Assembly (NCBI GenBank): GCA_022841505.1
Contig: JALHRK010000011.1
Coordinates: forward strand, 1-44,771
Source: Saprospiraceae bacterium
GTDB taxonomy: Bacteria; Bacteroidota; Bacteroidia; Chitinophagales; Saprospiraceae
Reading direction: 5' to 3'
Length of the DNA: 44,771 nucleotides
In this document: in pieces, positions 6,129 through 44,771 of the stretch
Layout of the letters: each line of letters begins with the position of its first letter
How positions within the stretch are numbered: the first letter of the stretch is position 1
The notes under the pieces: generated by a model
What the model saw: the letters and a program-made list of their open reading frames with translations, nothing else
What the model was told of the DNA's origin: nothing
Databases searched by the model: none
Translations under genes and position numbers: made by a program

Positions 6129-6418
6129 TTTATCTTTTTAATCTCTTTTACCACATCGTTCACAATAGATGTTTTCACATAGAACACATAGCCACCCGCT
6201 TTTTTCAAATCTGATCCTGCTTATGTTCCTGACCCCCCCAATTCGTCGGGGCAAGTGTAAAGATTCTATGTACTTTCGTGGTAGGTAGTTGTATTTTTTC
6301 AAAAACCCTAGTCAAACTTCGCGCAAAAGTAAGGCGAATTGCGCCAAAACCGTCCTTTGTTTTCAAAAAACAATTCTGATCTTGGCTTCTATAAGTTTTT
6401 TTACTGCACATAGGTCTT
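6129..6418. other. intergenic spacer upstream of dusB, no gene seen
   Basis: I find no convincing reading frame, tRNA or riboswitch here. Near 6173-6190 there is a CACATAG-A-ACACATAG direct repeat of a type common in Bacteroidota spacers. The short frames in this stretch have no start context or recognisable protein character. A promoter for dusB should lie in the first 100 bases but I could not pick one with confidence. Confidence 0.5.
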
Positions 6419-6507
6419 ACTCTGTGGGACTCTGCGTTCCTCCGCGAGACTCTGTGTAATTAAAGCGACGCGGAGTTTCCCGGAGTTAACACAGAGTTTC
6501 ACAGAGT
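6419..6507. repeat. ACTCTGTG-type hairpin repeat
   Basis: The arms 6419-6457 and 6467-6507 are imperfect inverted copies built from the unit ACTCTGTG-N-N-ACTC; the loop is about 9 bases. Within each arm the unit also repeats directly. A related hairpin lies at 14078-14160. This is a dispersed intergenic repeat family. Confidence 0.65.
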
Positions 6508-6550
6508 TGGGTTAAAGTTGCTTTTATTCCACTCGTGTCTGGCCTTACCT

Positions 6551-6740
6551 TTTAGTCGGTGTCTGTTTTTTAGAGTTCGAGAGCAAGGCATGCGAAGGGC
6601 CAAAAGTGGGGGTTTACTCGCGTAAATGGCCAATTTTTGTTTCGACTCCGCTCAACAACCGGTCATTGAGCTGGTGGCTGAGCGCAGTCGAAGCCAAGTC
6701 GAAATGAACGCCGCTATCGGACTATAAAAACAGACACTAA
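6551..6740. mobile_element. MITE-like hairpin element, copy 1, with a nested smaller repeat
   Basis: The element starts near TTTAGTCGGTGTCTG and ends CAGACACTAA; the ends are inverted copies (TGTCTG...TTAGAGTTCGA against TGTCTG...ATAGTCCGAT). The middle holds TTTACTCGCGTAAA. A second copy is at 44492-44626. Copy 1 is longer because another inverted repeat is nested in it: TTCGACTCCGCTCA at 6641-6654 against TGAGCGCAGTCGAA at 6679-6692. No transposase is encoded. The right end supplies the TAG stop of the cyclase gene. Confidence 0.65.
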
Positions 6741-8221
6741 GCTGCGGCATCAACAAAAAACATTTCGACATTCCCAATGTTCTTGGCAGGAATTGGACCG
6801 CGGGGCGTAAACTTGAAATGATCTTTTACGAAATTGTAAGTCGTACCGGAAACATTAACCTTACCGGGCTTGCTGCCTTCTTCCATTCGGGCGGCCACAT
6901 TCACGGTATTGCCCCAGATGTCGTAGGCAAATTTATGCGTACCCACCACGCCCGCTACCAAGGGGCCCGTGTGGATGCCAATGCGCACATCGAAGGCTGG
7001 CGTATTGTTGCGCTCTTTTTCTGCTTTCCAGGTTTCTATAAACTGTCGCATTTCCAGTGCTGCCTTTACCACCCGGACGGGATGGTCGTTGTCGTCGGCC
7101 TTCAACCCGCCGGCGCACATGTAGGCATCGCCAATGGTTTTGATTTTTTCCAATTGGTAGCGGCCTGATATTTCATCGAATGCGCGGAAGCAATAATCCA
7201 ATTCTTTGACCAACTGTGCGGGCGTCATGCCGGCTGCCACGCGGCTGAAGTCCACAAAATCGGTGAACAGCACCGTAACCATATCGTGTTGCCGGGCTGC
7301 AGCGGCGCCAGTCATTTTCAGTTCTTCGGCGACCGCGATGGGCAGGATGTTCAGCAGCAATTCGTCGGAGCGTTGATGCGCGGCTGCGATGTCGTGGTTT
7401 TTTTGTTCCAGCAGTTTGTTCAGTTTTCGCAGGGTTCGGTACCGGTAAAACAGGCCAGCTGCAATCACCAAAACTGCAAGGGATATGACGGCGAGCAGGT
7501 TGCGCTGGCTGCTTTGCAGGGCCAACTGGCTGTCGCGTTCGTTGAGTTCCATTTCCTGGCGCGTCAGCAACAGCGAGTCGCCGAGCATGTGGATGGACAA
7601 AGAGTCGAGCAGGTTTTGCTGGCGCGACAACAAAAACTGCTGTCGCAGTTGCGCCTCTGTCATGGCTTCCAATTCTTTTTCTTTGGCGCGCATGGCTTTT
7701 TCGAGCGCAACTTTTTCGACGTTCAGGCTTGCAATTTGTGCATTCATGTCGCTTTGGCGCTTTTCGGCTCCGGGCATCTTGTCGTCTATGACTTTCAGCA
7801 CGTTATCCGGCAATTTAGGCGTCTCCACAGCCATTACGCCGGAATTGTCGGGGGGCTTCGGTACGTTAGGGTTGAGCGAAGCCAGCAATTCCCGGTTTTT
7901 GCTTTTTAAATTGGCATCTATCGTCAGGGTATTGCTTTCTTTCAGCATCCTGAGCGCTTTAGTCCGGCTGCGTACCGGACTTTTACCGCTTTCAATCAGT
8001 GCTTTAGCCCCTTCGTGGAGCGCGATGGCCATACCTTCGTTACTGCCTGCTTTTTGCGCCAGGCGGTAAGCGTCGTCAATCAGGCGCTGCACCTTGTCGT
8101 AATTCTGTGACAAGCGCGCTTCTTCTGCCTGTTTGATTTTTTCAGTAAAACTGGTGGCTTGCGCAACTATGTTATTTGCGCAAAGCAGCAAAATCACGAT
8201 TCCAAAAAAATACTTGCTCAT
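6737..8221 (-). CDS. membrane-bound class III adenylate cyclase
   Basis: A 494-residue protein that should make cyclic AMP. It has a signal peptide (residues 1-21), a helical TPR-like extracytoplasmic region (25-120), a coiled coil (150-235), one membrane segment (242-260), a short coiled-coil signalling helix with the N-I-L-P motif (291-294), and a class III cyclase domain (310-490). Metal-binding Asp residues are D321 (L-F-T-D-F) and D365 (G-D-A-Y-M); the ATP-selecting pair K361 and D434 is present, and N441/R445 supply the transition-state residues, so the enzyme should be active on ATP rather than GTP. It starts 30 bases after the glutaminase gene and is probably co-transcribed. Its TAG stop lies inside the edge of a repeat element. 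Confidence 0.9.
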   Translation of the reverse strand: MSKYFFGIVILLLCANNIVAQATSFTEKIKQAEEARLSQNYDKVQRLIDDAYRLAQKAGSNEGMAIALHEGAKALIESGKSPVRSRTKALRMLKESNTLTIDANLKSKNRELLASLNPNVPKPPDNSGVMAVETPKLPDNVLKVIDDKMPGAEKRQSDMNAQIASLNVEKVALEKAMRAKEKELEAMTEAQLRQQFLLSRQQNLLDSLSIHMLGDSLLLTRQEMELNERDSQLALQSSQRNLLAVISLAVLVIAAGLFYRYRTLRKLNKLLEQKNHDIAAAHQRSDELLLNILPIAVAEELKMTGAAAARQHDMVTVLFTDFVDFSRVAAGMTPAQLVKELDYCFRAFDEISGRYQLEKIKTIGDAYMCAGGLKADDNDHPVRVVKAALEMRQFIETWKAEKERNNTPAFDVRIGIHTGPLVAGVVGTHKFAYDIWGNTVNVAARMEEGSKPGKVNVSGTTYNFVKDHFKFTPRGPIPAKNIGNVEMFFVDAAA

Positions 8222-42121: not shown

Positions 42122-42255
42122 GTCCCCGTAGGGGTTGAAAATATTCAACCCTTACGGGGAGGAGGCGGGGTTAAAGATTATCAACCCTTATGGGGGCCAG
42201 GGTTGAAGGTTTTCAACCCTTATGCGGTGGCGGGGTTGAAGGTTTTCAACCCCTA
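42122..42255. repeat. array of four 20-base palindromes
   Basis: Four units of GGGTTGAA-N4-TTCAACCC type lie at 42132-42151, 42168-42187, 42200-42219 and 42233-42252. The spacers are 12-16 bases, G-rich and contain TTAYGSGG; the outermost unit extends to a 16-base arm (CCCCGTAGGGGTTGAA). The last unit ends at the stop codon of the GH16 gene, whose TAG is part of the GTAGGGGTTGAA edge. Spacers are too short for a CRISPR array. Confidence 0.7.
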
Positions 42256-43506: not shown

Positions 43507-43638
43507 TTCGACTGCGCTCAGGCAGCGAGAGGGGAATAAAGGCCGTTTCCGAAAAAGTTTATAATTTGTTGTTCGTTGTCGGTTGTTCGTTGTTCGTTAT
43601 CACATCTTCAAATCCTCGAATTTTCAAATCTTCAAATC
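43507..43638. repeat. spacer repeats: TTCGACTGCGCTCA and TTTGAAGAT family
   Basis: TTCGACTGCGCTCA at 43507-43520 is identical to the complement of the right arm nested in the element at 6679-6692. At 43604-43638 a 35-base inverted copy of the repeat at 10356-10390 occurs with one mismatch; on the minus strand it begins with the TGA stop of the second GH16 gene. Between them is a TTGTTCGTTGTCGG-like run of simple repeats. Confidence 0.7.
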
Positions 43639-44458: not shown

Positions 44459-44491
44459 ATATTGGTTATTTGCGCTAATTAGCGTCTGTGC

Positions 44492-44626
44492 TTTTAGTCG
44501 AGTGTCTGCTCTTTAGAGTTCGAGAGCAAGGCATGTTTGGCCCCAAAAACGGGAGTTTACTTGCGTAAATGACCGATTTTGGGGCCGAACATAACGCAGC
44601 TATCGGACTATAAAGACAGACACTAA
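44492..44626. mobile_element. MITE-like hairpin element, copy 2
   Basis: Second copy of the element at 6551-6740, sharing TTTAGAGTTCGAGAGCAAGG, the TTTACTTGCGTAAA core and the end TATCGGACTATAAAGACAGA. Here it is uninterrupted: the two halves pair along nearly their full length of about 55 bases each, with GGCCCCAAAA against TTTTGGGGCC in the stem. As in copy 1, its right edge (CACTAA) supplies the stop codon TAG of the adjacent minus-strand gene. Confidence 0.7.
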
Positions 44627-44771
44627 TCAGCCGCTTCAAAATACAATTCAAACCAGCCGCCACCATTCAGAAACGGGGTGCGCACGATCAATTCCGTCTC
44701 CGTCAACACAACGATGTCGTAATTGTTGGAAGCATCCCAAACCCCCATAAAAGCGCCTACTGGCAAATTGA
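44623..44771 (-). CDS. C-terminus of an exported glucan-locus protein (partial)
   Basis: The last 49 codons of a gene whose start lies beyond the window. The frame is open to the edge and ends in TAG at 44625-44623. The visible sequence is beta-rich: V-G-A-F-M-G-V-W-D-A-S-N-N-Y-D-I-V-V-L, then L-I-V-R-T-P-F-L and G-W-F-E-L-Y-F-E-A-A-D. This resembles the end of glycan-binding PKD-type lipoproteins that often precede GH16 genes in laminarin loci, with the pattern G-x-Y-x-G-x-x-x-Y-E-I-L. I infer a surface binding protein of the same locus; too little is visible to be sure. Confidence 0.55.
   Translation of the reverse strand, partial: NLPVGAFMGVWDASNNYDIVVLTETELIVRTPFLNGGGWFELYFEAAD

Follow-up and report, generated by a model that had tools for sequence, protein, structure and literature searches.

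A family of MITE-like hairpin elements in a Saprospiraceae genome lies in most sampled copies with its right end on the stop codon of a neighbouring gene

The window, which is the whole 44,771-nucleotide stretch of Saprospiraceae DNA analysed here (contig C11 of a 7.50 Mb draft genome in 999 contigs), contains two copies of a short repeat, each lying directly against the 3' end of a gene. Both copies had been recognised in the initial annotation, and both were confirmed, although reading their ends from the sequence moved the bounds to 6535-6737 for copy 1 and 44482-44623 for copy 2. As had also been proposed, the right edge of each copy provides an in-frame TAG for the adjoining gene, which is the ORF at 6737-8221 in the first case (ending in NIGNVEMFFVDAAA) and a gene cut by the contig end in the second (ending in GWFELYFEAAD). 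The parts of the two copies are as follows.

6535-6558, plus strand: left terminal repeat of copy 1, degraded, with six mismatches against the left repeat of other copies
6559-6737, plus strand: hairpin part of copy 1, from GTGTCTG to CAGACAC, right terminal repeat included
6640-6704, plus strand: REP-like hairpin of copy 1, TTTCGACT...AGTCGAAA, in place of part of the right arm
6737-6739, minus strand: TAG stop of the guanylate cyclase-domain gene at 6737-8221, its G being the final base of copy 1
44476-44481, plus strand: left copy of the target duplication of copy 2, TAATTA, the 6-bp length being taken from flank statistics
44482-44499, plus strand: left terminal repeat of copy 2, two mismatches to the pattern
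44502-44623, plus strand: hairpin part of copy 2, right terminal repeat included
44623-44625, minus strand: TAG stop of the gene that runs off the contig, with the final base of copy 2 as its G
44624-44629, plus strand: right copy of the target duplication of copy 2, TAATCA

The inverted repeat by which copy 1 differs from copy 2 is present, with the 14-mers TTCGACTCCGCTCA at 6641 and TGAGCGCAGTCGAA at 6679, and the further occurrence reported at 43507 is the reverse complement of the second. It is not simply an extra segment, however, as about 13 bases of the right arm have been replaced by it (L046 compared with L031). Two other features were noted in the window: sequence resembling ACTCTGTGGGACTCTGCG / CGCAGAGTTTCACAGAGT at 6395-6510, near copy 1, with similar sequence in L141 and L230, and a palindromic repeat of 30 nt, GGGTTGAAGGTTTTCAACCC, which is present in four imperfect copies at a spacing of 32-36 nt (42125-42255) and adjoins a gene for a glycosyl hydrolase of family 16.

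Two copies only in the genome, the outcome that the initial annotation had named as speaking against its reading, is not what we found. At up to three mismatches the 25-base core matched 206 places in the whole genome (100 forward, 106 reverse) and the reversed pattern none, so the family is beyond chance; the right-end pattern matched 187 places and was likewise set against a reversed-pattern control. All counts that follow refer, unless stated otherwise, to 132 copies having both the left core and the right end (at most six mismatches each) in a sample of 120 stretches, 1.34 Mb or about 18% of the genome, picked for holding a listed copy; besides these, 20 left cores and 44 right ends in the sample are unpaired. 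Since it was selected on core and right end, the conservation of these two parts is not fairly comparable with that of the rest.

The element is about 142 bp long, or up to about 200 bp with inserts, and has no transposase gene within it. It consists of a left repeat, GTGTCTGTCCATTTAGTC, one or two bases, and a long imperfect hairpin running from GTGTCTG to CAGACAC, the last bases of which are the right repeat, GACTATAAAGACAGACAC; the end-repeat motif is written as GTGTCTGTCYWTWWAGTC. The terminal inverted repeats expected of a MITE are thus present, at 18 bp, and the left one has at most two mismatches in 30 of the 132 copies and more than six in 54. In the 78 copies with a recognisable left repeat, the two flanks agree above shuffled pairing at a length of 6 (z 4.7; identity 0.571 versus 0.496 shuffled), the next best length being 5 (z 2.2), and exact 6-bp agreement occurs in 11 of the 78 compared with a mean of 3.2 and a maximum of 9 in 300 shuffles. 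The duplication has the consensus TAWWTA, with TATTTA, TAATTA and TAAATA as the commonest right flanks. One short version of about 55 bp (L254, C23:23373-23427) has both ends and hardly any interior. A different dispersed repeat, of the GGGACCTAATGCCGGTAG / GTACGTAATATT type, was seen at L166, L262, L272 and L387, in this genome and in a second one, G001.

Two assignments were considered for these elements and rejected. An IS630/Tc1-mariner origin, to which TA beside both ends might point, fails on a duplication of 6 bp rather than the 2-bp TA, and DDE_3 (PF13358) is absent from the host genome. A REP element is a single short palindrome that lacks a target duplication and has a tyrosine transposase to serve it, and the 6-bp duplications found here do not fit this.

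A simple trace of insertion came from one pair of loci. A 142-bp element on contig C161 (L177) is missing from the orthologous place in JABWAJ010000002.1, Saprospiraceae bacterium MAG_1 (L101); the gene of the empty site ends AAA TAG, and that of the filled site AAA TA|G, with the G supplied by the element. An element-free ortholog ending at the same TAG had been put forward as evidence against a stop shared with the element, and this is in part what we see, in the single pair found. Because the ortholog ends at the same TAG, the element slots into a pre-existing stop and keeps it. The 19 stretches of G001 contigs examined for further empty sites gave no usable ortholog, and a search for gapA in G001 did not find the gene. 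Both genomes have a copy at the typA end (L156 on C64, and L092 on C455 of G001) with different left flanks, and the left flank in G001 aligns to contig C61 of the host genome beside a solo right end; read from these alignments, the difference suggests rearrangement through copies.

Terminal repeats, 6-bp duplications, some 200 copies and one filled/empty pair together support the classification as MITE-like, the part of that proposal left without a counterpart being a transposase with matching ends. None was found by the search for DDE_3 in the host genome or among the DDE_Tnp_1 and rve hits examined in it and in G001. Of the G001 hits, L283, L285, L286, L287 and L289 (DDE_Tnp_1 or rve) were scanned for the ends and gave no match, the weak hits L291 and L292 being left out. 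Nor did a paired-end scan of 140 stretches yield a transposase: nine spans had facing ends 0.6-4 kb apart, and the ORFs read in two of them (L328, L331) were not transposases. Two genes of the host genome were rejected as partners: the DDE_Tnp_1 gene on C76 (L284), a single insertion sequence bounded by different terminal repeats, GAGCTTGTTCGGGAATTT, and the rve gene on C20 (L288, C20:1-2490), whose product is followed by an ATPase-like ORF in what looks, by eye, like a Mu-type transposase A/B pair.

The hairpin varies in sequence but stays paired. Among 97 copies of 117-128 bases every one is different, and 20 of 46 pairs show more Watson-Crick pairing than any of 200 shuffles. In 50 copies hand-picked from 73 of length 121-123, 97.8% of the cells of 43 pairs are paired compared with 90.7% after shuffling, and 16 pairs have changes on both sides compared with 7.9 in shuffles; none of 500 shuffles reaches any of the five pairing measures and slid structures pair at 26-46%. 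Two reservations apply: the slide control is biased towards the structure, which was derived from these very sequences, and the shuffle control is inflated by relatedness among the copies. There is hardly any variation in the basal and middle helices; helix 3 varies but remains paired. As single-stranded DNA, copy 2 folds at -39.5 kcal/mol (z -10.8) and its complement at -31.9 (z -8.1). G.U pairs outnumber A.C pairs by 189 to 74, favouring the strand antisense to the abutted gene, a test that is only suggestive, as a single, almost invariant pair accounts for 91 of the 189.

The inner part of the hairpin is inverted in two copies (L155 and L175), lies in the usual direction in 105 and is unclassified in 25. 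Such an inversion requires exchange between the arms, and so one arm copied onto the other could give covariation without selection; the arms might stay complementary by such copying, by a need for the folded form, or by both. One of the two inverted copies (L175, C155, about 2129-2300) lies between the GAPDH gene and the next gene, flush on the GAPDH stop, and the start of the gene beyond it reads like phosphoglycerate kinase.

A fixed orientation behind genes, a covarying stem and fixed inner mismatches would also suit something other than a transposon, either a structured RNA in dispersed copies or a recombination site of the attC kind. We regard this as very improbable given the 6-bp duplications, the terminal repeats and the simple filled/empty site, and Rfam gave no match in the window at gathering thresholds. 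Integron attC sites belong to an array of cassettes with an integrase; the copies here are scattered over many contigs and not arrayed.

The REP-like sequence of copy 1 is itself recurrent. The 1.34 Mb contain 72 occurrences of TTCGACTNCGCTCA or its complement, against 0.04 expected at equal base frequencies, and 49 of the 72 lie inside paired elements; by pattern search 32 of the 132 copies carry such sequence, 18 as a full hairpin and 14 as parts. In 14 (L031-L044) of 60 compared loci, a sample partly chosen with copy 1 as query, the REP-like hairpin has the same junctions as in copy 1, which indicates one subfamily that spread; in other copies the motif lies in the loop or closer to the right end, and this variety of positions indicates several separate exchanges. 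The insertion of another repeat, as first described, therefore holds as to the presence of a REP-like hairpin and not as to a one-off insertion: parts of the element have been replaced at several positions, and one arrangement recurs.

We then considered the position of the copies relative to genes, called crudely by taking the longest ORFs of 80 aa or more that do not overlap (together covering 89% of the sequence), an end being termed facing when the nearest gene on its side points toward the element. Right ends are facing in 99 copies, away in 30 and without a gene in three; left ends are facing in 56, away in 70 and without a gene in six. Within an interval of -10 to +6, chosen after the distribution was seen, a stop codon was found at 84 of the 99 facing right ends and at 11 of the 56 facing left ends (Fisher p 7e-16), so that the stop shared with the right edge, first seen in the two window copies, is a general property of the family. 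The offsets of the 84 are -1 in 38, +3 in 19, 0 in nine, +2 in eight, +4 in four, +1 in one and others in five, and 36 of the 38 stops at -1 are TAG, formed from the flanking TA and the G of the element. The right end is not flush in 48 of the 132 copies. An earlier run with another edge treatment had 92 facing right ends and a similar picture, with 55 antisense and 14 sense tandem copies and four copies within an ORF. No further motif was apparent in the 40 bases on each side of the element.

In one frame an ORF that enters the right end meets the TAG of the junction, and the stops could then be new ones, made by insertions that truncate genes. The abutted proteins, however, end where their families end. 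From 76 proteins we hand-picked 20 for comparison with NCBIfam models; six had no model at the cut-off, and all 14 that had one reach within five positions of the model end. Eleven of these end at most 10 residues after the match (RpoN, GAPDH, TrxB, LptB, NuoD, malate dehydrogenase, TypA, DnaJ, a GlmM-like protein, a T9SS plug protein and a sodium symporter), and three continue for 19 to 50 residues (a ClpB-like protein, HMG-CoA reductase and an OPT transporter). In convergent pairs, where no gene remainder is expected, 31 of 38 right ends are flush, and the element-free ortholog already ends at the same TAG. The tested genes are not truncated, the element preserves a stop and does not create one, and truncation is the least credible of the explanations weighed here.

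Nor does a plain MITE with a preference for TAWWTA appear likely, the hits on stops then following from their A+T content and from the loss of genes struck at other places. The motif does contain a suitably placed TAA, and exact gene-sparing TAWWTA sites fall at a facing stop, in the interval from -1 to +4 nt, in 47 of 222 cases; when facing sites that spare genes are weighted by the duplication profile seen in the copies, 11% would fall there. The observed figure is 79 of 99. Furthermore, the flush share is unlinked to the motif (24 of 39 copies with a fitting flank, 60 of 93 without), and an asymmetry of 84 of 99 against 11 of 56 between the ends is beyond the reach of a near-palindromic target. 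Docking on stop codons in a nearly constant orientation is not explained by chance and target-sequence preference alone.

What speaks for the plain preference is a relative that behaves in this way. G101, a genome of the same bacterial family, has a 160-bp sister element with nearly the same ends and 186 matches to the end pattern; of 29 copies located, 18 have an exact duplication of 6 bp. Its facing ends lie at -1 or +3 in 10 of 31 cases with no end preference: a first sample had hinted at one (6 of 13 versus 0 of 13), but the second, partly overlapping, with the 29 located copies, gave 3 of 13 versus 7 of 18. As this sister element lacks the orientation, strong oriented docking belongs to the hairpin family and not to all elements with such ends.

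A DNA search of 60 genomes found the hairpin element in its own genome and in G001 only, and the end pattern matched in 21 of 199 genomes of the bacterial family, many of the matches being single and at control level. Among fifteen loci read, which cover part of these genomes, those of G001, G117, G203 and G157 show elements, and those of G101 and G171 show sister forms; a Flavobacteriales MAG has related hairpins on two contigs. Among 14 copies scored in other genomes, the right end is at a stop in five of seven in G001, two of four in genus g116 and one of one in genus g32, while a third copy of g116 has its left end at a stop and the two Flavobacteriales copies lie 48 and 378 bases away from one. 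Three of the five G001 cases (L092, L095, L096) are not independent, because their segments align with copy-bearing loci of the host genome; the few copies in g116 and g32 behave alike.

Whether the elements are directed to gene ends or kept there is a question on which the data lean to targeting. In the explanation we prefer, taken as a whole about evenly poised between right and wrong, this is a family of non-autonomous transposons presumably mobilised in trans by a DDE-type transposase. In most sampled copies one target TA is shared with the stop codon of a gene, and it is the right end, not the left, that faces this gene. TAG is left by insertion after TA, and the gene stays intact, because the last base of the element on that side is C, which reads as G from the gene. 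We infer that insertion itself, rather than later selection of copies, prefers gene 3' ends with the right end toward the gene.

The other possibility, which we consider less probable but by no means negligible, is that insertion is untargeted and that flush copies with the right end inward are retained as a gene 3'-end element acting in mRNA stability, termination or insulation. Consistent with this are the hairpin pairing, retained although the sequence varies, and the 54 of 132 copies whose left repeat is no longer recognisable while the core and right end persist, the sample having been picked on the latter. A review reports that ERIC copies alter the stability of upstream transcripts according to their orientation (PMC2229807). 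If the decay of the left repeat is taken as a rough measure of age, with the best repeats as young, flush copies are 17 of 18 facing ends in the best class, 33 of 38 in the middle and 34 of 43 in the most decayed; that the best-preserved are at least as biased as the decayed speaks against selection. Copies with a verified duplication are flush in 18 of 20 facing cases. Against selection, too, unpaired right ends with at most three mismatches (n=21), in which the normal interior has been lost or exchanged, are flush in 13 of 16 facing cases, and the mRNA of the abutted gene carries the less stable strand of the hairpin. Flush copies without a duplication do exist, and for these selection for flushness is possible. 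None of the 14 flush copies at offsets other than -1 or +3 has at least five of six duplication matches, and eight of them retain a TAWWTA-like left flank; the simplest reading of these 14 has them inserted at -1 or +3, with small indels arising later.

If targeting is right, a further step may be suggested, and only tentatively: the choice of target would read the 3' end of a gene and its direction, so that the element is guided into the stop codon with always the same end toward the gene, perhaps through a state of DNA or RNA where translation ends, such as an R-loop, which would make insertions beside essential genes nearly harmless. Tn7 offers a parallel, as it inserts just past a gene with one fixed end toward it; it does so at one site, by means of a DNA-binding selector and with 5-bp duplications. 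The fixed end is common to both, whereas the present element is found at many unrelated genes and carries no transposition genes.

Comparison with known bacterial repeats, drawn from the parts of the cited papers available, places the family close to bacterial MITEs such as RUP, Correia/NEMIS and MITEAba12, which are short, present in many copies and provided with terminal inverted repeats, target duplications and stem-loop transcripts (PMC2229807, PMC6382973). Shortness, the lack of an ORF of its own, the repeats, the duplications and the copy number are shared; the differences are a TAWWTA duplication of 6 bp, where those MITEs have TA or 9 bp, an exchangeable hairpin interior with no partner IS found, and a strong orientation on stops, where MITEAba12 is described as without orientation preference (PMC6382973). 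ERIC/IRU of enterobacteria, an imperfect palindrome of about 127 bp with an orientation-dependent effect on upstream mRNA (PMC2229807), is alike as a many-copy imperfect palindrome, but its sequence is unrelated by eye, its host group is another one, and docking on stop codons is not mentioned for it in what was available of that source. The inserted TTCGACTNCGCTCA hairpins resemble REPs as short dispersed palindromes (PMC2817692, PMC3733652), while the host element differs from REPs and REP-associated tyrosine transposases in its terminal repeats and target duplications. Among the titles and abstract openings listed from the open-licence PMC literature we found no report of oriented stop-codon docking, which may be in print elsewhere, and the term stop codon does not occur in the main text of PMC10969869 as available.

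A mobile element that settles on stop codons in a single orientation and leaves the stop working would, if this is true, be a clear bacterial example of targeting that does little damage. The covarying, exchangeable hairpins amount to about 100 natural variants for the study of how the arms of a palindrome are kept matched, and whether dispersed palindromes at gene ends were placed there or kept there is an old question that the family makes testable.
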